DNA from: Verrucomicrobiales bacterium | GTDB taxonomy: Bacteria > Verrucomicrobiota > Verrucomicrobiia > Limisphaerales > UBA9464 | Length of the DNA stretch: 64,000 bases | Assembly: GCA_027488845.1 (NCBI GenBank) | Contig: JAIYBC010000057.1 | Coordinates: forward strand, 124,001-188,000 | Reading direction: 5' to 3' | In this document: in pieces, positions 13,987 through 26,388 of the stretch | Numbering within the stretch: the first letter of the stretch is position 1 | Layout: the number at the start of each line of letters is the position of its first letter | Made by a program: the position numbers and the translations under genes | Notes under the pieces: model-generated | The model's input: the letters and a program-made list of their open reading frames with translations, nothing else | What the model was told of the DNA's origin: nothing | Databases searched by the model: none

Positions 13987-15390
13987 TCAGCGTTGGCTCC
14001 AGCCCCAGCGGGCGCTCAAGGGCCAGAACACCCATCCGGAGCAGCCGACGATGCGTTCCTCCGGGAAATACGGGAGCGGCCACATGCGGGAATCGGAGCT
14101 GTTCATGGTGTTGTCGCCGAAGCAGAGGACCTGGCCCGCCGGCACGGTCAGGCCGTTGGCGGCGTCGGGGAAGTTCGGCGTCGAACGGCTCATGGAATCC
14201 AGTTGCGCCTTGTTGCGGAGGAACTGCTCCCGGAGCGGCCCCGCCGACGGGAGCATCGTGGCGTTGGTGAAGCCCCTCCAGATCGCCGCCTTCTCCGAGG
14301 CGATCTGCGCCAGCCCGGCCTTGGCCGACGGATCGGCGCTGCGCATCAGCTCGTACTCCACCTCGTGCGGAGAGAACCAGTAGCCCTCGGCGAACCCGAT
14401 GCCGTTGACGTGTCCGGAGTAGCGGCTTGAGGCCGGATGCAGCGAGGCGTCGAAGGAATAGACCTTCTCGAACCCGCTGTCGGTGGACTCGATCCTCCGG
14501 CCGTTGATCGTCACATGGCGGTCGTCGCCGATGGTCACCGTCTCCCCACCCAGCGCGATCAGGCGCTTGATGTAATGGGTGTTGGCCGTCATGCCCGGAT
14601 GCTTGAGCGACTTGAAGACGACGGTCTCGCCCCGCTGCGGACGCCGGAAGTTGTAGGTGACGCGGTCGACGAAGAGGCGGTCGCCGGACTTGATGCGGCA
14701 ACGGATGATGGGTTTACCGGCCTTGAACCGGCGCTGCGGGTAGGTGCCGTACTCGTTCACAAGGCTCATGTGGCGCGGGAAGTCCTGCCGGCCTTCGCTC
14801 ATGGAGGTCGAGACCGGGTACTCCCGGTTGCCCACCCGGACGAGGAACTTCCGTCCCAGCAGGTTCTGGATCGCGGAGCCGGGAGCGGGGCCTTCGACCC
14901 CCGCGAACTCGCCGTCCTCCGTCGCGATCACCTCGACGTAGTGGTATCCGAACAGCGCCCACTCCGCGGCCCGCACCAGGACGTTGGGAACCTGCTGGCC
15001 GTTGAAGCGCAGGTCCTCCGAGGTGATGCCGTTGAAGGTGGGCTGGGCGGAGCCGGTGGGGATGACCATCGGCTGGAAGAAGAACTGGCGGAAGGCGAAG
15101 AGCAGGATCGCCATGGTCACGAAGCCCTCCACGTTGTCGCGGATCGAGGCGTTCGGATAGGCGTTGAGCCACTGGTTGGCCGAGGTTTCCAGACGCCGCA
15201 TCTCGGCCTGGATCTCTTCCTTCGTCCCGGTGGCGCGCACCTGCCGGAGTCGGGCGATGGCCGAATCCATCTCCCCGACGTTCTTCGGCGCCAGCTCGTC
15301 GCGCTGGTGGTTCAGGATCTTCTCCGCCGAATCGGCCAATTGGCCCGCTTCCCGGTAAACCTTCCAAAGCAGATGACGGATCACGGACAT
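13987..15390 (-). CDS. lepB: Signal peptidase I, enlarged
   Basis: 467 residues, longer than usual. It removes signal peptides from secreted proteins at the outer face of the inner membrane. Layout: charged helical N-terminus (1-95); one membrane anchor (about 97-112, ending RQFFFQP); catalytic Ser in [11 protein letters not shown], where the usual SMxPT is SAQPT; a long insertion (about 135-245); catalytic Lys in [20 protein letters not shown]; another insertion (about 310-400); and the C-terminal box [14 protein letters not shown]. Catalytic Ser and Lys are both present, so it should be active. ATG 15390 gives the natural opening. It is divergent from the large haem protein gene and 139 bp upstream of the PTP-RpiB-GlyA gene. 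Confidence 0.9.
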
Positions 15391-15545: not shown

Positions 15546-18500
15546 ATGACTCCTCTGCGTGCCTTCTCCGGCGCCCTCGCGTTGCTCCTGATTGGGGGAG
15601 TCCCATGGACGGCTTCGGCGGATCCGGCGGATGCGAACGGTCCAGCGGCCCCGTCCGCGGATGCTATGACATCGGCGACCCGCCTCAGGGTGGCCCCCGG
15701 TCTGGCGGTGTCGCCGTGGGCGACGGAGCCGCTGGTCCGGGACATCACCAGCCTCTCCTTCGACTCCGCCGGCAGGGCCTATGTGGTGGAGACCGGCCGG
15801 CGCCGGACGAGCGTGTTCGATGTCCGCGGGCTTGGGGCCTGGTTGGAGGATGACTTCGCGTTCCGTTCCACGGGCGATCGGCAGGATTTCCTGAGAAAGG
15901 TGCTGGATCCGTCGGATCCCCGGTATTCCGCCTTCCTCTCCGCGGTCACCAAGGCGGGGAAGGGGGGATTCCAGGACTTCAACCGGGACGGCACCATCGA
16001 CTGGAAGGACCTCGAGGTGGAGTCCGAGCGGGTTCGGCTGCTGACCGACACCGATGGCGACGGCCGGGCCGACACCGCGGAGACCTTCGTGGACGATTTC
16101 CGCAGTCCGATCGGAGGCGTGGCCGCCGGGGTGTTGGTGGAGGGCTCCCATGTGTGGTTCGCGTCGATTCCGGACCTCTGGCGGTTTGATGCCGGCGACC
16201 GGCGGTTCTCGGGATCCGGTCCTGCGGCTCCGGAACTCCAGGCCGCGAAGGAATCCCACCGGATCCTCACCGGCTTCGGAGTGCACATCGCCTTCGGGGG
16301 ACATGACCTGCACGGACTCACGCTTGGACCGGATGGGAGGCTCTACTTCAGCATCGCCGACCGCGGTACCTCGGTGACGAACCGCGAAGGTTTGCGGATC
16401 TCGCTGCCGGACACGGGAGCCGTCTTCCGCTGTGACCCGGATGGAAGCCGGATGGAGGTGTACGCCTCGGGGTTGAGGAACCCGCAGGAACTCGCGTTCG
16501 ACGACCTGGGGCGGCTCTGGACCGGCGACAACAACGGCGACGGCGGGGACAAGGCGCGGTGGACGCTCGTCCTCGAGGGGGCCGACTACGGCTGGACCCT
16601 GGGATGGCAGTGGCTGCCGAAGATGGGGGCGTGGAACTCGGAGCGGCTCTGGCACCTGCGTGAGGGCAACAGCGCCGCGTACCTGGTTCCTCCGGTGGCC
16701 CACGTGGGGCATGGGCCGGCGGGAATCGCCTTCTATCCGGGCACGGGACTCGGGGACCGGTTCCGCGGGCATTTCTTCCTCGCCGATTTCCCGGGTGGAA
16801 TCCGGACGTTCCAGGTGGAGCCGCAAGGGGCCTTCTTCCGGGTGGCCCAGCAAGGGCCGTGGATGGAGGACAACGCGTCCACCAACCGCACGGGGAAGCT
16901 CCTGTGGGACCTGTCGCCGGTGGACGTGACCTTCCCGCCGTTCGGGGGAGTCGTCGTGGCGGACTGGGTCCAGGGGTGGGACAAGACCGGGAAGGGGCGG
17001 CTCTGGCATGTGGCCGACCCGGCGTTGGCTGGCGACCGTGCGATTGCCGAGGTCCGCCGATTGCTAGCGGAAGGGACCAGTGGGGTCTACGCGGCCGAGT
17101 TGGCGGGGAGACTCGGGCATCCGGACCAGCGCGTGCGTCTGGCGGCGCAATGGGAGTTGGCCCGGCGCGGCGCAGCGTCGATGCGTCCGCTCCTGAGGAT
17201 CGCCCAGGATTCCAGGTCGCGGTTGGCGCGGATCCACGCCATCTGGGCGCTGGGGCAGATCGTCCGATCGGACCGTTCGCTGGGGGAGGGGAACTCCTTC
17301 CGATCCCTGCGCCCGCTGTTGAGGGACCGGGATCCCGAGATCCGTGCACAGGTCCTGCGTCTGTTGTCGGAGACCGGTGAACCGGGATGGCGTCGTGGAC
17401 TTGCGGGGCACCTTGCGGATCCGGAGGCGGTCGTCCGGGTCGCCGCGCTGGAAGCGGTCCGGAGGATCCAGGACCGGGAAGGTCGGTTGTCCCCGGAGAC
17501 GGCTTGGGCGGTCGCGAGTCTGGCTGCCGGGGAGAGGGAGCCGGATCCGGCGGAGTTCCTTGCATTGACCCGGGCGGTCCCGGTGACGGAGTCCTTCCAT
17601 TACCTCGGGGAGGATCCGCCTGTGGGGCGGACGCCTTCGCGGTCCCGGATCGGTCATGGACGGGGACTGGCCTCGTCGCCGTACGCCGACCGGCTCCGTT
17701 TGGCCTTGCTGATCCGGCTGCGGCGGGAAGGGGATCCGGAAGTCGCGAGATTCCTGGGCTCCTCGAATGCGGTCCTGGCCCTGGAGGCGGCGCGGGCGGT
17801 GAACGACGTGCCGATCCCGTCGGGGTTCCCGGCCCTGGCCGCACTGCTCCGGGAAAACGTCCCGGCGCTTCCCCGTGGGGGAGAGGAGCGTCTCGGGGGA
17901 GTCCGCCTGAAGCGGGAAGAGGCGAGGGGCTGGATCCTGCGCCGAGCCGTCAATGCCGCGTTCCGTCAGGGGGAGACTTCCGGGGCCGCGGCCATCGGAC
18001 GACTTTCGATGGATGCCGGCCAGCCCGAGGCGCTCCGCGTCGAGGCGATCGAGGCGTTGGCCGATTGGGGGCGTCCCTCGCCCCGGGATCGGATCGTCGG
18101 TCTCCATCGGCCCCTTCCCCCGCGCGATCCGGCACCGGCCTTGGCGGCGATGGAGGAATCCTGGCGGACGCTGGAAGGTCCGAAGACGCCGGTTGCCGTG
18201 GCTGTCGCAGCGTTGAGGGCGGCGGAACGCCTGCGGCCCACCGGACTTCAGGAGCTGTTGAAGCGGAGTACGTCGAGCCCGTTCGCCGAGGTCCTGAAGG
18301 AGGCTGAGCGTATCGACGTTGCCGTGCGGAAGGAGTCGTGGGAGTCGCTCTTGTCCTCGCTGGAGACCGGATCGGTGCGCGAGCGGCGGGCCGCCTTCGC
18401 GCGGTTGGCCTCCGCGGGGAATTCCGGTTTGTCTTCCGCGGTGGAGAAGTGGATCCGGAAGGTGACGGCCGGAGGTGTCGATCCGGCGTTGCGGGCGGAC

Positions 18501-19031
18501 ATCCTGGACCTGGCCCGGATTCCGGGTCTTTCGTCAGCGGTCGGCGACGCGTTGGCCGATTGGAGACGGAGCCTGCCGGAGAGCGATCCGCTTGCGGCGT
18601 TCCGGCCGGCTTTGGGAGGGGGCGATCCGGAGAACGGTCGGCGCCTTTTCGCCGAGCGGGCCGACTGGGGATGCCAGCGGTGCCACAAGCTCGGCGGGGT
18701 GGGTGGAGACGTCGGACCGGAGTTGGCCGGACTCGGCCGCAAGCGGGGACGGGAACATGTGCTTCGGTCGATCCTCCAACCCAACGCCGAGATCGCCGCG
18801 GGTTTCGAGAGTGTCGTCGTGGTCACCCACGACGGCGAAACCATCGCGGGAACGCTCCGCTCCGAGACGCCGGAATCGGTCGTGGTCCTCACCGGCGACG
18901 AAGGGCCGGTGGCGGTTCCGAAGTCCCGGATCGCAAGCCGGGAGCGGGCGCCTTCGGCGATGCCGGAAGGGCTTGGGGAGCTGATGACCCTTCGTGAGCT
19001 GCGCGACCTGGTCGAAGCCCTGCAGGATTGA
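15546..19031 (+). CDS. PVC-type beta-propeller/HEAT/haem-binding CxxCH protein
   Basis: 1161 residues with a signal peptide (1-26, ending ASA). Order: a six-blade propeller-type sugar-dehydrogenase-like region (about 45-500; SFDSAGRAYVVETGR, LTLGPDGRLYFSIADRG, GLRNPQELAFD), a stretch of HEAT-like repeats (about 510-950), and a C-terminal haem domain with one CQRCH site (about 1040) and a DVGPELAGLG motif. Within the propeller are two EF-hand-like loops, DFNRDGTIDWKDL and DTDGDGRADTAE, likely Ca-binding. This architecture is frequent in Planctomycetes and Verrucomicrobia, where many copies exist; substrates are unknown, with carbohydrate oxidation as the usual guess. ATG 15546 is chosen for the signal peptide; the frame is open further upstream. 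Confidence 0.88.
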   Translation: MTPLRAFSGALALLLIGGVPWTASADPADANGPAAPSADAMTSATRLRVAPGLAVSPWATEPLVRDITSLSFDSAGRAYVVETGRRRTSVFDVRGLGAWLEDDFAFRSTGDRQDFLRKVLDPSDPRYSAFLSAVTKAGKGGFQDFNRDGTIDWKDLEVESERVRLLTDTDGDGRADTAETFVDDFRSPIGGVAAGVLVEGSHVWFASIPDLWRFDAGDRRFSGSGPAAPELQAAKESHRILTGFGVHIAFGGHDLHGLTLGPDGRLYFSIADRGTSVTNREGLRISLPDTGAVFRCDPDGSRMEVYASGLRNPQELAFDDLGRLWTGDNNGDGGDKARWTLVLEGADYGWTLGWQWLPKMGAWNSERLWHLREGNSAAYLVPPVAHVGHGPAGIAFYPGTGLGDRFRGHFFLADFPGGIRTFQVEPQGAFFRVAQQGPWMEDNASTNRTGKLLWDLSPVDVTFPPFGGVVVADWVQGWDKTGKGRLWHVADPALAGDRAIAEVRRLLAEGTSGVYAAELAGRLGHPDQRVRLAAQWELARRGAASMRPLLRIAQDSRSRLARIHAIWALGQIVRSDRSLGEGNSFRSLRPLLRDRDPEIRAQVLRLLSETGEPGWRRGLAGHLADPEAVVRVAALEAVRRIQDREGRLSPETAWAVASLAAGEREPDPAEFLALTRAVPVTESFHYLGEDPPVGRTPSRSRIGHGRGLASSPYADRLRLALLIRLRREGDPEVARFLGSSNAVLALEAARAVNDVPIPSGFPALAALLRENVPALPRGGEERLGGVRLKREEARGWILRRAVNAAFRQGETSGAAAIGRLSMDAGQPEALRVEAIEALADWGRPSPRDRIVGLHRPLPPRDPAPALAAMEESWRTLEGPKTPVAVAVAALRAAERLRPTGLQELLKRSTSSPFAEVLKEAERIDVAVRKESWESLLSSLETGSVRERRAAFARLASAGNSGLSSAVEKWIRKVTAGGVDPALRADILDLARIPGLSSAVGDALADWRRSLPESDPLAAFRPALGGGDPENGRRLFAERADWGCQRCHKLGGVGGDVGPELAGLGRKRGREHVLRSILQPNAEIAAGFESVVVVTHDGETIAGTLRSETPESVVVLTGDEGPVAVPKSRIASRERAPSAMPEGLGELMTLRELRDLVEALQD

Positions 19032-19119: not shown

Positions 19120-20862
19120 TCAGAGCCAGGGTTGCAGCAGTTCCTTCTCCTGACGCTTGAGGGAGGTCGTGTCGATCTGGCGTGCGTATCGGCGGGCGGC
19201 CTCGCGTTGCTGGTTGGCGCCGAGGATGGCGACATAGGTCACCTGCTCGCGGGTGGAGAGTTTCTCCCACTCCGGGGAGCCCTGTTCGAAGGTGTTGAGA
19301 GCCGCCGCGGCATCTCCCTTGCGGAGACGCACGAGCGCCAGGGCGGAGACGAACCGCCGGTTCCTGGAAGGCTCCGCGTCCTTCTCGTCGTCGAGCACCT
19401 TGCGGAGGGCGCGCTCCGCGTCGTCGAGGTTGCTTCCGTTCAACGCCTCCCGTTCGGCCCGTTCGGCCGCCAACCGGAAGTCGTTCGGGGCGAAGTTGCT
19501 CAACCGCGAAAGGACGGTGATCTCCGCCTCGACCTGGTCTCGATCCTTGGCGAGCCGGAGCGCCTGACCGCCCGCGGCGAGCATCAGGTGCTGGAACTCG
19601 GTGATCCGGGTCCAGATGCGGATCGCGGTGTCCGGAAGGGTGAGTTCCTCGGCGGTGCGGGCGATGAAGACAAGGGCGTCGGGGCTGCGCGTGGTGAGGT
19701 CGGCGGCACCTTGCAGCAGGTTCTCGGCGTCCGCGCCGCGGCCTTCCGCGGCCGCCAAGCGCGCCCTCAGAATCAGATGGGAGAAATCCGGGATGCGTCG
19801 TTCGCTCTTGCGGAGGAATGCGGCGAGGTCCTGCCACTTCCCGGTTTGGGCGAGGGCTTCGGCATGGTGGACGCCCAATGTCGGATCGAGGAGCGCCCGG
19901 TCCTCGGGGAGAACCTCGATCAGGCCGGCCGGGTCCCTCTGGAGAAGCCAGGACGCCAGCAGGATGGAATTGGTGGTCGAGGACTCGGCGGCCAGCTGGG
20001 CCTTGGCCTTGGCGGCGATCTCGGGCCGGTCGTTCGTCCGTGCCTGCCACCGCAGGGTCAGGGCGCTGATGTTGTTGGTGATGTTCCCGAGGTTGAGGTC
20101 GAGGATCGCCAGCAGTTCGGGGATCTGCTCCGAGTTCAGCTGGCCGCTGCCCACGAGCCGGCTGATTGCGGGTGTCTGGAGCGGGCCGCGGACGCGGGCC
20201 ACGTCGGTCAGGAGTGCGAGTCCCTCGCCGGCCACGGACGAGTTGGTGTTGAGGGCCAGCAGGCTGCCCAGCGTGAACTGGTTGGTCAGGTCGAGCGGGT
20301 CCTGGGTGAACGCGTAGCGGGCGAGTCCGATGGCGCGGTCCTGGAAGCCCGTCTCGGTGAGGTGGGTGATGCCCAGCCGCAGGATCCGGGAATTGGTGGA
20401 CTGTGCCGGTGCCAGTTCGGTCAGGAGCGGGGCGGAGACGTCCGCCCGGTGCAGGGTGACCGAGGTCTCGAGGAAGTTGACCTTGTCCTCGAAGGTGGCC
20501 CTGCCGAGTGCCGTCAGGGTTTGCCAGTCCTGGAGGGCCGCCACGGGATTGAGCCTGAAGAGGTATTGGGCGCGAAGCCGGACGATTTCAGGATCGTTGG
20601 GTGCGAAGCGGTTGGCGGCCTTGATCTGCAGGATGGCCTCGTTGGTCTTCCCGGCATTCAGCAACCCCGTGGCCTCCGCGGCGAGTTGGCGGCCTCGGTA
20701 CTCCTTGAACTTCGGATAGCCGAACTTCTGGGCAAGTACCGCAGCGATCCCGAAGGCCGGGATCCCGACGAACAGGAGGAAAGCCTTCCGTGAGGAACCC
20801 ATCCTGCGGCGTTTGCGCGCCTGTGGACTCGTGGGAGGTGTGCTGGGCGGGTTCGGTTTCAT
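19120..20862 (-). CDS. TPR-rich membrane-anchored protein, second copy
   Basis: 580 residues. Basic N-terminus (RKRRRMGSSRK), one membrane helix (about 27-45), then tetratricopeptide-type helical repeats for the rest. Its end (YVAILGANQQREAARRYAR, then KRQEKELLQPWL) closely matches the end of the preceding gene (YVALLGASGQRESARRLAR, then HRQEKPLVAPWL), so the two arose by tandem duplication. Last gene of the exosortase-TPR-TPR operon; its ATG overlaps the previous stop by four bases. Probably a scaffold facing outside the membrane; partners unknown, perhaps extracellular polymer or exosortase substrates. Confidence 0.8.
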   Translation of the reverse strand: MKPNPPSTPPTSPQARKRRRMGSSRKAFLLFVGIPAFGIAAVLAQKFGYPKFKEYRGRQLAAEATGLLNAGKTNEAILQIKAANRFAPNDPEIVRLRAQYLFRLNPVAALQDWQTLTALGRATFEDKVNFLETSVTLHRADVSAPLLTELAPAQSTNSRILRLGITHLTETGFQDRAIGLARYAFTQDPLDLTNQFTLGSLLALNTNSSVAGEGLALLTDVARVRGPLQTPAISRLVGSGQLNSEQIPELLAILDLNLGNITNNISALTLRWQARTNDRPEIAAKAKAQLAAESSTTNSILLASWLLQRDPAGLIEVLPEDRALLDPTLGVHHAEALAQTGKWQDLAAFLRKSERRIPDFSHLILRARLAAAEGRGADAENLLQGAADLTTRSPDALVFIARTAEELTLPDTAIRIWTRITEFQHLMLAAGGQALRLAKDRDQVEAEITVLSRLSNFAPNDFRLAAERAEREALNGSNLDDAERALRKVLDDEKDAEPSRNRRFVSALALVRLRKGDAAAALNTFEQGSPEWEKLSTREQVTYVAILGANQQREAARRYARQIDTTSLKRQEKELLQPWL

Positions 20863-22616
20863 TGGGTCGTCAACCAGGGGGCTACCAACGGTTTCTCCTG
20901 CCGGTGCAACAAGTCAATCGGGACTCTCCGGGCCAGTCGTCGCGCGGATTCCCTCTGCCCCGAGGCGCCCAGCAAGGCGACGTACACCGCCTTGGCCCGG
21001 GGGGAGACGCGGTCGAAGTCGAAGCCGGCTTCCTCCAGGAGGGCCAGGCCCGAGGAGGGATCCGCGGACCTCAGGCGAGCCAGCGCGAGTCCAATCCTCC
21101 ATTCGATCCGATCCGGCTGCGATTCGTGCAGCCCCTGAAGCGTCTTCGTCGCCTTGGCGGTTTCCTCCTCGAAGAGCAGGTCGAGGATCGCCGCTTCGGC
21201 GGTGAAGGACTCGTCCGCGCTGAAGAAGCCCGCCAGCCGACGCACGGAACGGTGGAAGAGCGTCAGGTCGTCCATGGACCTCGCCATCCGGCTGACCTGG
21301 CGTGCGGCCTCGACGGAATGCCTCGAGTCGCCAAGGAGGGTCTCCCACGCGGCCAACGCGGCATTGGTCATGCCTTGGGCCTCGGCGGTCCGGGCCAACA
21401 CGGGGAGCCAACGCCGGTCGTTGCCGGCGGACTCGACCGCGGCCCGGTACTCCGCCTCCGCCTCGTCCCGGCGCCCGGCCGCAAAGGAGCTTCTTCCCCT
21501 GAAGTACTTGACCACACCGGGGGTCAACCCGGGTTTCTCGTCGGACAGGATGGATTGGAGTTCCTTCCAGCGTCCGGCCGAGGCGAGACCCTCGCAGCGG
21601 ATCATCTGGAGGTTCAGGTTCGTCCGGGCCATCCCTTCGGGCAACCAGTCTGGCAGGCGTGACGCGGCGTTCCTCAACAGCCATTCGCAGACCTGGAAGG
21701 TCTCCGCCCGATCCGCCCCCGGTGGCGTGGCGGACAGCAGTTCGTCGACTGGCGACTTCTGGCCGTCCGTGGGGAAGCGCATGCGGATCGCGGTCAGTGC
21801 GAGGCGCACCGGGAGCGGGGGATTGTCCTGGCTGGACAGCCGGCGGAGGACCGTGTCGGCCTCGGACCGCTTGAGGTCGGGGATCCCGGAAAGCAGCAGC
21901 GCCGCCTCGACGGCGTCCTCGCCGCCGTCGGCGACCAGTGACCAAACGAGCCGCCTGCCTTCCTCCCGCGGCGGACCCGGCGGGAACTCGAGGAGCACGG
22001 TGCCCAGCAGCAGCTGGTTCCTCCGGTTGGAGGGCTCCTGGGAAAGCAGGAAGCGGGCGGTGCGGGTCGCGCGGGGGATGTCCCGCAGCAGCAGATGCTG
22101 GCGGACCAGCAGCCGCAGGAAGACCGGATTCGTCGGGCTGGCCCTGACGAGCTCGGTCAGCATCGGGCGCGAGAGGTCCAGCCGGTTGGCCATGAGGGCG
22201 GCCTCGACATACTCGGACCGTTCCCGTGCGTCGGCCCGCGGGCCGGCCACGGCAAGGTACTTCTGCCAGTAGGCCACCGATTCCTCGGCCCTGCCGAGGG
22301 CGAGGAATCGGGCGGCGGCCCGGAGGACCTCCGGGTCGTCGGGTGCCAGGCGAACCGCCGACTTGACGAGGTCGAAGGTGCCGTCGAGGTCGCGGGCGGC
22401 GACCCGGGATTCCACCTCACGGGCCTTTCCCCGGGCGTTCCAGCCCTTCGCGAAGCGATACGCCGGCCTCGCACCGGCTCCGAGCGCCAGGGCGAGGACC
22501 GTCGCCCAGCCGAGGAAGCGGAAAATGCGACCCGAAGTCGAACGTCTCCGCGGCCGACGGGAACCACGCGGCGTCGGCTGTGTTTCGGCGGATTGCGGAT
22601 CGACGGGTCCGTTCAT
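20859..22616 (-). CDS. TPR-rich membrane-anchored protein, first copy
   Basis: 585 residues. Proline- and arginine-rich start (about 1-30), a membrane helix (about 33-52), then TPR-like helical repeats (for example SAVRLAPDDPEVLRAAARFL near residue 85). Paralogue of the next gene: same layout, related ends, similar length. It starts 13 bases after the exosortase stop and overlaps the second TPR gene by four bases, so the three form one operon. The function cannot be read from the sequence. Confidence 0.8.
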   Translation of the reverse strand: MNGPVDPQSAETQPTPRGSRRPRRRSTSGRIFRFLGWATVLALALGAGARPAYRFAKGWNARGKAREVESRVAARDLDGTFDLVKSAVRLAPDDPEVLRAAARFLALGRAEESVAYWQKYLAVAGPRADARERSEYVEAALMANRLDLSRPMLTELVRASPTNPVFLRLLVRQHLLLRDIPRATRTARFLLSQEPSNRRNQLLLGTVLLEFPPGPPREEGRRLVWSLVADGGEDAVEAALLLSGIPDLKRSEADTVLRRLSSQDNPPLPVRLALTAIRMRFPTDGQKSPVDELLSATPPGADRAETFQVCEWLLRNAASRLPDWLPEGMARTNLNLQMIRCEGLASAGRWKELQSILSDEKPGLTPGVVKYFRGRSSFAAGRRDEAEAEYRAAVESAGNDRRWLPVLARTAEAQGMTNAALAAWETLLGDSRHSVEAARQVSRMARSMDDLTLFHRSVRRLAGFFSADESFTAEAAILDLLFEEETAKATKTLQGLHESQPDRIEWRIGLALARLRSADPSSGLALLEEAGFDFDRVSPRAKAVYVALLGASGQRESARRLARRVPIDLLHRQEKPLVAPWLTTQ

Positions 22617-22629
22617 CGGGATCGCGGGG

Positions 22630-24267
22630 CTAGGGTCCGGCCGGCCGGTATTGGAACATCTCCGCGATCGAACCCATGGCGACCGCGATCGGCGGATCCT
22701 TCTGCGACAACGGGTAGGGGACGAAGCAGGAGACCAGCTCCACGCCGAGCAGGTGGCGGTCCGTGGGCCACGGCTGATAGACCTCCGGGTGCGGTGTGTA
22801 TCCGGCCTCGTAGCTCATCACCACCGGACGCCCATTCCGCCAAACGCCCCAGAGCTGCACCGCCTTCACGTCCTCGCGTTCGAATCGGAAGACGTAGAAC
22901 TGGAGCGGAACCCCTTCGATGACGACATTCGTGGTCGAGACCCCGCCCACCTGTTTCCAGCCGGAGCCAGGCATGCAGCTGTCGGGCCGGTGCCCAAGGG
23001 CGCGCTTGCTCTGGGGGGAAGGACGCCAGAACAGGTGGTAGGCGTCGACGAAGCCGAACGGGGCGAGCGCGTTGGTGAGACGCAGGGACTCGCCGGACGT
23101 CGCCTGGAGCTGGTTCCAAGCCCCTTCGTCGAAGTGGTTCTTCTTGATTCCCGGCCGTTTGTCGAACTGGGCCGTGAAGTAGGGCTCGGTCTGCGGCTTG
23201 GCCTTCCTGGCGAGGATGGCGTACCAGCCGTGGACCACGGCGAAGCACAGGATCAACACGGCCAGCATGGGGCGGAGGTCGGGCACGCGGTCCCAGCGCA
23301 GGTGGCGGACCAGGGGGACCGCATCCTTGGGGCGCTTGGAGGGCCATACGTCGCCGGCGGTGCTCTTCCCGGCCAGCCACTTCCCGAGGAGCCAGATGAC
23401 CGCGTAGAACGAGTACATGGCGGCATTGCCGATCCAGTCATGCGCCCGTTCCATCGCCTCCGGGCCTTCCTTCTCCATGATCCAGCAAAGGGCGAAGGTC
23501 CGCACGAAGTTGCTGATCAGCGCGAAGACGGTGGTGAGGAGGACGAGCGCGACACGGCGTGGCGTGGCGAGCATCAGCAGTTCGCCGATCGCGAGGCTGA
23601 GCATGAGTCCGGACTGGAGCGACCGGATGCCGCTGCAGGCCTCGACGATGCCGACGGTCCCCTTGCTGAGCTTGAGCACCGCGCCGGATCCCGATTCGAC
23701 CGGGATGCCCAGCCACCAGAGCAGTTCCGTCACGACCTGGGCGACGCCGATCATGAGGTTCTGCTGGAGCGGATGGGCGATGCGATCCGGCCATGGGACC
23801 GAAGTGAGGAAAAAGAGCACCGGGAACGCCCCGCAAAGGACCAGCTTCCGTCCCCCGGTCCAGAACATCGCGGCGAGGGTGAGGCCGACGGCGGCGAGGT
23901 TGATCGCCCAGAGCACCATGCCGGACTGGTGGTATTCGCTGCGGTAGACCTCGACCGGGAAGAGCGCCAGCGCCGGGATCGCCAACAGCCACCGGTTCCA
24001 GGGAACGCCGGCTCCCGCCGCGGGGCCCAGGGAGGTCCAGAACCCCTCGGGTTGGGTGCCGAGCCGTCTCCAAAGGTACAGCCCCATCAGCACCGGCACG
24101 ATGAAGCCATAGGAGTAGTTGTCGTCGGTCGACCAGAAGCCGGCGCAGATCGAGATCGCCCAGACCCAGAAGCATCCCAACAATACTCCCAGGACCCCGG
24201 CGCGCCCCTTGGGTGGAACGTCGACCTCCGGGCTTGGGCTGGATGGGGCAATCGACATCGGGTTCAT
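22630..24267 (-). CDS. Exosortase with fused C-terminal EpsI-like domain
   Basis: 545 residues from ATG 24267 (24258 is also possible). The first ~310 residues hold about eight to nine membrane segments and the catalytic set of exosortases/archaeosortases: Cys in VEACSGIRSLQSG, Arg in SNFVRTFAL and His in AHDWIGN. From about 345 follows a soluble domain with RPDSCMPGSGW, the mark of EpsI-type exosortase-associated proteins. Exosortases cut C-terminal PEP-CTERM-like sorting tags on the outer side of the inner membrane and are linked to exopolysaccharide production. No tagged substrate was found in this window. Which named subfamily it belongs to cannot be decided here. Confidence 0.9.
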   Translation of the reverse strand: MNPMSIAPSSPSPEVDVPPKGRAGVLGVLLGCFWVWAISICAGFWSTDDNYSYGFIVPVLMGLYLWRRLGTQPEGFWTSLGPAAGAGVPWNRWLLAIPALALFPVEVYRSEYHQSGMVLWAINLAAVGLTLAAMFWTGGRKLVLCGAFPVLFFLTSVPWPDRIAHPLQQNLMIGVAQVVTELLWWLGIPVESGSGAVLKLSKGTVGIVEACSGIRSLQSGLMLSLAIGELLMLATPRRVALVLLTTVFALISNFVRTFALCWIMEKEGPEAMERAHDWIGNAAMYSFYAVIWLLGKWLAGKSTAGDVWPSKRPKDAVPLVRHLRWDRVPDLRPMLAVLILCFAVVHGWYAILARKAKPQTEPYFTAQFDKRPGIKKNHFDEGAWNQLQATSGESLRLTNALAPFGFVDAYHLFWRPSPQSKRALGHRPDSCMPGSGWKQVGGVSTTNVVIEGVPLQFYVFRFEREDVKAVQLWGVWRNGRPVVMSYEAGYTPHPEVYQPWPTDRHLLGVELVSCFVPYPLSQKDPPIAVAMGSIAEMFQYRPAGP

Positions 24268-24358
24268 AGTGTGTGGATCGGTTGCGGGGGGGTCAATGGC
24301 GAGGCCTTCCGGGGAAGGACGGCATTTGTCCCAGGCCTCGGGACAGGATGGCCGCCAC

Positions 24359-24565
24359 ATGAAGGCATTGATGGTCCTGATCCCGGGAACCGCATCCGGG
24401 GAGACGCTGGCCCGGTTCGGAAGGGCGCACCTCGTCCGGTTGTGGGACGGGCGGTTCGTGGTGGAAGGCGGAGGTGACCACGAGGTCCGGGAGGCCCGTG
24501 AGTGGGCGGCGCATTTCCTTCACGAAGCCGTGTACATCGGGCGCATTGCCGGACGTCGTTCCTGA
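24359..24565 (+). CDS. Small hypothetical protein
   Basis: 68 residues beginning MKALMVLIPGTASGE. Mixed hydrophobic and charged segments with no clear signal peptide or membrane helix; the LVRLWDGRFVVEGGGDHEV stretch is probably beta-strand. It lies between the divergent exosortase gene and the convergent response regulator gene. The frame is open upstream, but the upstream part overlaps the exosortase. No family recognised; supported only by sensible composition and position. Confidence 0.45.
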   Translation: MKALMVLIPGTASGETLARFGRAHLVRLWDGRFVVEGGGDHEVREAREWAAHFLHEAVYIGRIAGRRS

Positions 24566-24622
24566 ATCGGGGGGCAGTTCCCGAATCGCCATGTGCGGCC
24601 GGGCATCCGCCGGCCCGGTTCC

Positions 24623-25270
24623 TCAGGCGTCGACCAAGCCTTCGCGGACGGCGTAGCGGACCAGTCCGGCGACGGAATGCACCGCCAGCTTGCGCATCAC
24701 GTTGGTGCGATGGGATTCGACCGTCTTCACCGAGAGCCCGAGCTCGGAGGCGACCTCCTTGTTGCTCTTGCCCTGGGCGAGGTGGCGGACGATTTCGCGT
24801 TCCCTCGGGGAAAGGTTGGCGGTCTCGACCGGGGCCGGCGGGCGTTCGCCGACGAACTCGCCGACGACCATGCTGGTGACACGCTGGGTGAAGTACGTGC
24901 GGCCCTGGCGGATCGCGGTCACCGCCTCGGCCAGTTCGCGGCCGGCATCGGACTTGAGCAAGTAGCCCTTGGCTCCGGCACGGAGCACCTCGCGGACGAC
25001 CTGGTTGGACTCGTGCATGGTCAGCACGAGCACGGCGGTCTCGGGTGAGACCTCGCGGATCGCAGCGGCGGTCTCGAAGCCGTTCATCCGGGGCATGGTG
25101 ACATCGAGGACGGCGAGACCCGGCCGGTGGGCGCGCACCAGCTCCAGCGCCGCCTCGCCGTCCGCGGCCTCGCCCACCACATGGCACTCGGGCAGTTCCT
25201 CCAGCGCGGAACGGATGCCCCGGCGGACGATTTCGTGGTCGTCGGCGATGACGATGTTGTAGTCGCTCAT
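24623..25270 (-). CDS. NarL/FixJ-type response regulator
   Basis: 215 residues. Receiver domain (about 1-120) with the acidic pair in IVIADDHEIV, phosphorylation Asp in LAVLDVTMPRMNG, the Thr/Ser switch in LVLTMH and Lys in GYLLKSDA; then a LuxR-type helix-turn-helix (about 150-210; LSPREREIVRHLAQGKSNKE and SVKTVESHRTNVMRKL). Acts as a DNA-binding regulator controlled by the adjacent kinase, whose stop overlaps this ATG by four bases. Target genes are unknown. Confidence 0.95.
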   Translation of the reverse strand: MSDYNIVIADDHEIVRRGIRSALEELPECHVVGEAADGEAALELVRAHRPGLAVLDVTMPRMNGFETAAAIREVSPETAVLVLTMHESNQVVREVLRAGAKGYLLKSDAGRELAEAVTAIRQGRTYFTQRVTSMVVGEFVGERPPAPVETANLSPREREIVRHLAQGKSNKEVASELGLSVKTVESHRTNVMRKLAVHSVAGLVRYAVREGLVDA

Positions 25271-26388
25271 GGTGTTTCGGAGGGAAGGGGAATGGTGGCG
25301 ATGATCCGCGTCAGTCCGGGTTTGGACTCGATCGAGAAGCGTCCGTTGAGCTCGCGCACCCTCTGGCGCATGCCGGAGAGGCCGACGCCGGTGCCGGGGG
25401 AATCCATCTGTCGCTGGATCTTCTCGGGAAGACCCTTGCCGAAGTCCTCGACCTCAAGCCGGACGTTTCTTCCCCGGGTGCCGAGCCGGATGGTGGCCCT
25501 CTTGCTTTCGGAATGGCGGAGGATGTTGGAAAGCGATTCCTGGACGATGCGGAACAGGGTCAGTTCGATGTTGCCCGGCCAACGCGTGTCGTCGTCGGGG
25601 GCCTCCAGTTCGGTTCGGATGCCGCTGCGGTCGGAGAACCGGGAGACATGCCACCGGAGGGTGTTGCAGAGGCCCAGGTCCTCCAGGAGCGGCGGGTGGA
25701 GCAGGGCGGACATGGTCCGCAGCTCCAGGGAGCAACGGGCTGCCAGACGGATGCATTCGCGCACGGTGTCGGTGTGCGGCGAATGGTTGGAATCGAAGAC
25801 CCGTTCCAGGCGGCTCAGGCCGATCTCAAGCGCCGCGAGGACCTGGGCGGTGGAGTCGTGCAGCTCGCGGCCGATCCGGCGACGCTCCTCGTCTTGGGAA
25901 CGGAGGAGGGCACCGGCCAAGGCGCTTTCCGCGCTGTATCGGGTGGAAAGGTCCCGCAGCTGCACCAGTGCGACCGGTTCCCCTTCCGATTTCGCGGCGG
26001 AAGTGATGACGACGGAGACCGGGGTCTCGAGGCCGTTCCTGCCGGTCATCAACGTCTCGCCGGACCAGCTTCCCTTCTCGAAGGCGGTCCGAAGGCCTTC
26101 ACGGACCGTGGCCTGCGACTCCGTCACCGGAAACAGGGCCAGAAGACACCGCATCGTCTCTCCACGAGCTGCGGGCAGCTGTCTGGCGGCGGACTGGTTC
26201 TTGTGGATGCAGTTCCCTTCGGCGGTGACGAGGATCACCAGGTCCGGCGACAGGTCCAAGGCGTGGAGCAGGGCGATGCCGAGCCCGTTTCCGGGCACCG
26301 CATCCTTCTTGGCACCGTTCGAATCCGGAGGTTTTCCGACTCCCGGATCCGAGCCGCCGTCTCCACGCTTTCTTGGGGTCACAGGCAT
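25267..26388 (-). CDS. PAS sensor histidine kinase, NarX/DegS type
   Basis: 373 residues, no membrane segment, so probably a cytosolic sensor. A PAS-like domain (about 40-160; SPDLVILVTAEGNCIHKNQS) precedes HisKA_3 with the phospho-acceptor His in RRIGRELHDSTAQVLAALEIG (about 195-215) and an ATPase domain (about 280-365; NILRHSESKRATI for the N box, DFGKGLPEKI and GTGVGLSGMRQRV for the G boxes). Partner of the overlapping response regulator. The signal is unknown. Confidence 0.93.
   Translation of the reverse strand: MPVTPRKRGDGGSDPGVGKPPDSNGAKKDAVPGNGLGIALLHALDLSPDLVILVTAEGNCIHKNQSAARQLPAARGETMRCLLALFPVTESQATVREGLRTAFEKGSWSGETLMTGRNGLETPVSVVITSAAKSEGEPVALVQLRDLSTRYSAESALAGALLRSQDEERRRIGRELHDSTAQVLAALEIGLSRLERVFDSNHSPHTDTVRECIRLAARCSLELRTMSALLHPPLLEDLGLCNTLRWHVSRFSDRSGIRTELEAPDDDTRWPGNIELTLFRIVQESLSNILRHSESKRATIRLGTRGRNVRLEVEDFGKGLPEKIQRQMDSPGTGVGLSGMRQRVRELNGRFSIESKPGLTRIIATIPLPSETP

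Follow-up and report, generated by a model that had tools for sequence, protein, structure and literature searches.

A family of membrane-anchored TPR proteins linked to exosortases in Verrucomicrobia, with some copies encoded beside PEP-CTERM genes

Introduction

To our knowledge, it is an open question how an exosortase selects its numerous substrates and passes them on. A locus that may bear on it lies in a window of 64,000 nucleotides from a Verrucomicrobiales bacterium (C11:124001-188000 of genome G000, which comprises 5.39 Mb in 69 contigs). Here, the gene of a long exosortase is followed on the minus strand by two closely packed genes for tetratricopeptide repeat (TPR) proteins, TPR-A and TPR-B (19120-24267). 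The original prediction, made from the sequence of the window alone, had described this arrangement, and the gene layout was borne out, as were the overlapping ends of the TPR genes and the paralogy of their products (28% identity over 555 columns, E=5e-43). It had further proposed that the TPR pair is dedicated to the exosortase and acts in polymer export or substrate presentation. We asked whether these proteins belong with exosortases in general and which role would fit them best.

Results and Discussion

The TPR family is linked to exosortases across the class

The distribution of both protein families was determined in a class sample of 189 genomes that were at least 85% complete, applying cut-offs of E<=1e-25 for the TPR family and E<=1e-50 for the long exosortase. 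The TPR family was detected in 65/189 genomes and the long exosortase in 38/189, and 36 of these 38 genomes possessed both (Fisher p=1.7e-18, without correction for relatedness). An exosortase of any kind was present in 159/189 genomes, i.e. in all 65 TPR-positive and in 94 of the 124 TPR-negative genomes (p=1.1e-6). Thus, TPR genes occurring without exosortase in most relatives, which had been named as a possible objection to a dedicated pair, were looked for and not found in this sample. In at least 38 of the 65 genomes, a TPR gene was found no more than 1.5 kb away from one of the exosortase matches counted (46 of the 147 TPR genes); these numbers represent a lower bound because only long exosortases were compared in 36 genomes.

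Adjacency was also determined at 26 named loci from metagenome-assembled genomes of Verrucomicrobia that gave an exosortase match; seven of the loci belong to genomes that are also in the set of relatives. Twenty of these loci had an adjacent TPR gene, which was located downstream and co-directional in 19 cases and upstream in one (L212). Tandem TPR genes were found at five of the 26 loci (L195, L200, L206, L207 and L208), and the remaining neighbours mostly varied by lineage (neighbours shown for 25/30 loci). The predicted order exosortase-TPR-TPR is therefore conserved with regard to an adjacent TPR gene but not to the second copy, and we concluded that the conserved exosortase-TPR module is real and that tandem pairs characterise certain lineages. 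Similarly, the proposed dedication applies to the family, which is tied to exosortases, rather than strictly to the pair, as five further family copies occur outside the operon in G000.

Such a pattern could also arise mostly by lineage inheritance, if a TPR gene were carried along with the exosortase and paralogs expanded independently of it. The many solo TPR copies without an obvious partner would fit this explanation, as would the general abundance of exosortases in the class. However, adjacency extends to loci whose exosortases share an identity of only 30-38%. The TPR gene occurs in three different orders relative to 31 adjacent long exosortases (17 downstream, 7 upstream and 7 divergent), and the other neighbours are mostly unrelated. 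We therefore consider inheritance by lineage a highly unlikely explanation.

At L193 (9812-10534), as well as at L194 and L203, where an adjacent TPR gene is missing, a CAAX-protease-like (Rce1-like) gene is convergent with the exosortase gene. Fusions of EpsH with CAAX proteases are mentioned in passages of a 2006 survey (PMC1569441).

Solo TPR copies beside PEP-CTERM genes

Apart from the exosortase-linked copies, genomes of the same taxonomic family contain solo TPR copies. A PEP-CTERM gene adjoins 9/31 of these (p=2.8e-9; the assumed chance is 1.8%, which takes approximately 40 PEP-CTERM genes among approximately 4,500, both rough figures). By genome, the numbers were 2/5 in G000, 1/2 in G007, 1/3 in G020, 0/1 in G021, 0/3 in G022, 2/4 in G023 (one a fragment), 1/4 each in G106 and G143, and 1/5 in G205. 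Near-identical copies in G005, G012 and G013, fragments in G007 and G205, the copy on C15 of G020, and all exosortase-adjacent copies were kept outside the 31; two of the uncounted near-identical copies (G012 C4 and G013 C263) also have a PEP-CTERM neighbour. In the phylogenetic tree, the copy on C23 of G000 groups with that on C50 of G007, and the copy on C10 of G000 with that on C37 of G023, so that merging of likely orthologs leaves 5 or 6 cases (p=2.2e-4 or 1.7e-5). In the three genomes of the family whose neighbourhoods had not been seen beforehand (G106, G143 and G205), 3/13 solo copies (C9, C62 and C42) adjoin a PEP-CTERM match as judged by coordinates and frame length (p=0.0015 at the same assumed chance, or 0.022 if the copies on C62 and C42 are orthologs and counted once).

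On C10 of G000, the solo TPR gene is convergent with a PEP-CTERM gene at a distance of under 80 bases, the product of which additionally contains a putative ice-binding-like adhesive domain. On C23, a solo TPR gene and a PEP-CTERM gene occur on the same strand, one directly upstream of the other. Further PEP-CTERM neighbours were found on C50 of G007 (two genes), on C181 and C37 of G023, and on C35 of G020 (two genes). The position of some dispersed copies beside genes for tagged proteins hints that the TPR proteins are sorting partners. Of the two roles originally proposed, one in handling sorted proteins is favoured because solo TPR copies adjoin substrate genes.

Alternatively, the TPR proteins might be regulatory or assembly factors of the exosortase complex that make no contact with clients. 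The close gene spacing in the window and the class-wide co-occurrence are consistent with such a function, but the repeated occurrence of solo copies beside PEP-CTERM genes would be left unexplained, and we regard this possibility as unlikely.

At L121 (9819-11624), two PEP-CTERM genes with near-identical VPEAETYVAGLALVG tails lie beside one solo TPR gene; the Pfam PEP-CTERM profile misses both (E<=0.01).

The exosortase and its C-terminal domain

The exosortase matched PF09721 well above the curated cut-off (E=4.8e-38, 131 bits versus 25.7) with a domain spanning residues 28-298, and an extra hydrophobic helix is located near residues 327-346. It displays the motifs EACSGIR (at residue 209), NFVRT (253) and AHDW (275); the residues C211, R256 and H276 within these motifs, which we take to be the catalytic Cys, Arg and His, are invariant across 7 aligned family members. 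The general exosortase/archaeosortase signature TIGR04178 was passed (51 versus 23 bits). Of the named exosortase classes of NCBIfam that were listed, none reached its own cut-off, the best-scoring model by E-value being XrtD (TIGR04152) with 88.2 bits, under a cut-off of 400.

The C-terminal part (residues ~357-545), which carries HRPDSCMPGSGW, is EpsI-like by its position and a conserved HRPD-C-MP--GW motif. The match to DUF3485 (PF11984) occurs in the right place but below the cut-off (E=0.029, 14.5 versus 26.1 bits). DUF3485 was matched at E<=0.1 by 5/7 family members and the EpsI V-type model by 1/7 (E=0.0024). The proposed C-terminal fusion to an EpsI-like domain is thus plausible, though weak by sequence. 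In the structure model of the exosortase (mean pLDDT 67.6), the C-terminal domain was the better part. A fold search with the exosortase gave no match at E<=0.001, and a second comparison of the C-terminal domain yielded Z values of ~6-7 to PsbP, LpqN, DcrB, SciW and similar proteins, a range (Z below 8) in which the tool cautions against common arrangements. The resemblance of the modelled domain to the PsbP/Mog1/DcrB group is therefore suggestive only. This group includes SciW and EagT6, which were solved bound to transmembrane regions of effectors.

Two more exosortases are encoded in G000, on C36 and C13. The latter is directly followed by a separate protein of 255 residues at the place expected for EpsI.

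The TPR proteins

The TPR family consists of membrane-anchored alpha-solenoids of ~580 residues, and G000 encodes seven copies. They share a common plan with a mostly basic N-terminus, one membrane helix, the solenoid, and a C-terminal motif resembling LKxxERxLLxPWL. In TPR-A and TPR-B, 7-8 basic residues precede the helix and 6-8 are found in the 35 residues that follow it; by positive-inside reasoning on the residues before the helix, the solenoid would be placed in the periplasm. A simple pattern for lipoboxes gave one doubtful hit among 57 family members and none in TPR-A or TPR-B. The solenoid was modelled with a mean pLDDT of 90.5, and among the matches listed, the fold search gave generic TPR/alpha-solenoid proteins only, with TM-scores to the query of <=0.33.

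In a tree of 48 copies, the family's exosortase-linked copies cluster with weak support (87/69), and the copy of G020 is left without a resolved position. TPR-B pairs with the lone exosortase-linked TPR protein of G007 (support 100/100), TPR-A groups with exosortase-linked TPR proteins of other genera (96/86), and the tandem pair of L206-L208 forms two clades of its own. Because each groups elsewhere in the tree, TPR-A and TPR-B are not recent duplicates.

Two further copies have unusual surroundings. At L088:10020-10943, a solo copy on C39 and a gene for a phosphodiester glycosidase (NAGPA) are arranged divergently, with the same layout in G013. In G022 (L117:4042-5779), the TPR gene beside a second exosortase is split into three open frames, by either decay or an assembly error.

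PEP-CTERM substrates

A genome search of G000 returned 41 PEP-CTERM profile matches at E<=1, 31 of which were above the Pfam cut-off, and the tails were of the VPEP type. None of the 41 lies inside the window, the nearest being ~25 kb outside. Both the lack of a PEP-CTERM-type tail in the window and the location of the substrates elsewhere had therefore been called correctly, and the second objection named to a dedicated pair, a genome devoid of sorting-tag proteins, did not apply. At other loci, tagged genes occur next to the exosortase itself: genes with a VPVPEMSAL...RRR tail at L205, L209 and L211 belong to a single gene family and are oriented divergently to the exosortase, and a gene with a VPEGSAL...RRFRGAKK tail is located directly upstream of it at L210. 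The tails of L205 and L210 obtained no Pfam score at E<=0.01.

Before the relatives were examined, two classes of tails were defined in G000 with 10 seeds each, class Y (VPEPSTYAA...WRRR) and class V (VPEPSTVALG...). Within the genus, at E<=0.05, the five genomes with a fused exosortase had 33, 26, 9, 30 and 34 class Y matches compared to 1-6 in the 14 genomes without it, and 17, 12, 6, 14 and 11 class V matches compared to 3-8. The Y/V ratio separates both sets fully (1.50-3.09 versus 0.33-0.86). A single tail subclass for the window exosortase was nevertheless dropped, as four of the five genomes are close relatives, G007 is barely above the others, sites can be matched by both profiles, and G019, a member of the same family with neither fused exosortase nor TPR protein, has 20 class Y matches. 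Of 40 fetched tails, 33 were readable; as an after-the-fact remark, those of G019 and the negative congeners mostly had another helix core, often with GF. The link of class Y to the fused exosortase is thus a lead and not a result. A promoter shared by the PEP-CTERM genes and the operon was likewise rejected: none of 31 upstream regions had fewer than two mismatches to the sigma-54 consensus. A single 8-mer stood out in these regions (5 seen versus 0.57 expected), for which start codons were picked by a rough rule that was plainly wrong in about three cases.

A possible role of the TPR proteins as adaptors

Based on these observations, we propose an exosortase sorting module of Verrucomicrobia in which the TPR proteins would act as periplasmic adaptors for sorted proteins, a reading to which we give an even chance. 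Clients encoded at many scattered loci would be exported and then stay anchored in the inner membrane through their C-terminus, which has a PEP motif, a helix and a basic tail. This tail would be cut off by the exosortase, whose fused EpsI-like domain is probably periplasmic and which would then deliver the processed protein to the cell surface or matrix. As solenoids anchored in the inner membrane and presumably facing the periplasm, the TPR proteins may present clients for processing by binding to them, to the exosortase or to both. The copies in the operon would serve the exosortase generally, and dispersed copies beside PEP-CTERM genes would serve particular clients. It is conceivable that the dispersed paralogs are client-specific receptors which bring the PEP-CTERM protein encoded next to them to the shared exosortase, and that the EpsI-like domain of the latter shields the tail helix of the client. 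This extension exceeds the data, and we regard it as rather improbable.

Several observations weigh against the adaptor proposal. An exosortase match without adjacent TPR gene occurred at L193, L194, L198, L203 and L213, although less than 1 kb of contig is left at L198 and the match at L213 is weak and short; at L188, the contig ends within the exosortase gene. Long exosortases were absent from 29/65 TPR-positive genomes, all 29 of which have some exosortase, and in 27/65 every TPR gene was more than 1.5 kb away from the exosortase matches counted. Since exosortases also occur in most genomes that lack this TPR family (94/124), the family is dispensable for exosortase action in general. No recognised PEP-CTERM neighbour was found for 22/31 solo TPR copies. 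Finally, sugar-metabolism or glycosyltransferase genes were present near the exosortase at 5/15 other loci scanned (L117, L124, L126, L207 and L210), none of which is a same-family ortholog.

The latter observation relates to a different role. TPR regions of PgaA, BcsC and LapB are thought to be scaffolds for polymer synthesis or export, and the TPR proteins could similarly scaffold the making or export of a surface polymer, to which the exosortase would be linked because sorted proteins join the polymer. Weak matches of some family members to the PgaA, LapB and BcsC models point in this direction, and exosortase genes are described in parts of the 2006 survey (PMC1569441) as being nearly always among exopolysaccharide genes. 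In contrast, no glycosyltransferase or polysaccharide-export family was detected among the 14 flanking window proteins scanned. Sugar genes were also lacking among the neighbours scanned at six loci with orthologs from the same family (L189, L190, L192, L193, L199 and L201); one to a few neighbours were scanned per locus, so that misses are possible. The nine solo copies adjoining PEP-CTERM genes, whose other neighbours were viewed without a systematic scan, also speak against a polymer scaffold. With the sugar genes at the five loci in its favour, we regard the polymer export role originally suggested as rather unlikely, though more probable than the other alternatives considered.

Relation to known systems

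With the PEP-CTERM/EpsH system of Proteobacteria that includes PrsT, PrsK and PrsR, as described in parts of PMC1569441, the module has an exosortase, many PEP-CTERM proteins and a TPR protein in common, and in this genus also a two-component pair by the exosortase. The same sections report that PrsT was identified because it matched the profile of a regulatory DNA site of PEP-CTERM, and suggest TPR domains as adaptors. In Aquincola, according to portions of PMC9850573, prsT is located downstream of pepA and required for flocs, a layout like that of the solo TPR genes beside PEP-CTERM genes. The proteins studied here differ from PrsT in being ~580-residue, membrane-anchored and multi-copy, without a lipobox by the simple pattern. 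PrsT (TIGR02917) was the NCBIfam model matched by most TPR members (12/20 at E<=0.01, best 8e-18); TPR-A remained far under its cut-off (27.3 versus 312 bits), and TPR-B gave no match. The kinase reached 18 bits against a cut-off of 300 for PrsK, and the regulator is of the NarL type (Response_reg and GerE) and not of the sigma-54 NtrC type of PrsR. The long C-terminal extension of the exosortase is shared with the XrtD/VPLPA-CTERM system (TIGR04152), from which it is set apart by score (88 versus 400 bits) and by the VPEP-type tails.

Rhombosortase and myxosortase are proteases different from exosortase. Their systems, with GlyGly-CTERM (PMC3237569) and MYXO-CTERM (PMC11980579) proteins, are similar in that a single membrane protease serves many tagged proteins from dispersed loci, and the portions of these accounts that we cite name no TPR partner. 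In the open-licence literature on exosortases, PEP-CTERM, PrsT and Verrucomicrobiota (titles and beginnings of abstracts), we found no description of a TPR family of this kind or of an accessory receptor layer for exosortases. For Verrucomicrobium spinosum, Table 1 of PMC1569441 gives no EpsI, PrsK, PrsR or PrsT. The TPR family is a candidate counterpart of PrsT. As it tracks exosortases throughout the class and has some copies beside substrate genes, it provides gene pairs for testing client recognition. Tests would best address the link between exosortases and TPR proteins and the neighbourhood of TPR and substrate genes.

The locus and its neighbouring genes

The features of the locus are listed in Table 1. 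The stop codon of the exosortase gene is separated from the TPR-A start by 13 bases, and the TPR-A stop and TPR-B start overlap in ATGA. Because of this spacing, the three genes probably share one transcript. Among the loci whose neighbours were read, the two-component pair adjoins the exosortase in the same genus only, and it was therefore dropped as a core part of the module.

Table 1. Features of the exosortase locus, in positions of the window.
Feature	Position	Strand	Remarks
Exosortase, long form, 545 residues	22630-24267	minus	PF09721 profile; Cys/Arg/His motifs
TPR-A, 585 residues	20859-22616	minus	basic N-terminus, one membrane helix, then alpha-solenoid
TPR-B, 580 residues	19120-20862	minus	paralog of TPR-A
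Gap of 355 bases between response regulator and exosortase	24268-24622		probable promoter region
Response regulator, NarL/LuxR-type	24623-25270	minus	Response_reg and GerE; upstream of exosortase
Histidine kinase, PAS-HisKA_3	25267-26388	minus	upstream of response regulator
Short open reading frame	24359-24565	plus	antisense, within the gap
Signal peptidase I	13987-15390	minus	one gene from the operon
PVC-type heme-binding CxxCH protein	15666-19031	plus	convergent with TPR-B

The short open reading frame in the gap upstream of the exosortase was also called in three close relatives and could either represent a small gene or result from the conservation of a leader. The heme-binding protein has HEAT repeats and a GSDH-like domain. 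The signal peptidase I is unusually long (467-539 residues, depending on the start chosen), and Peptidase_S26 was matched in three stretches.

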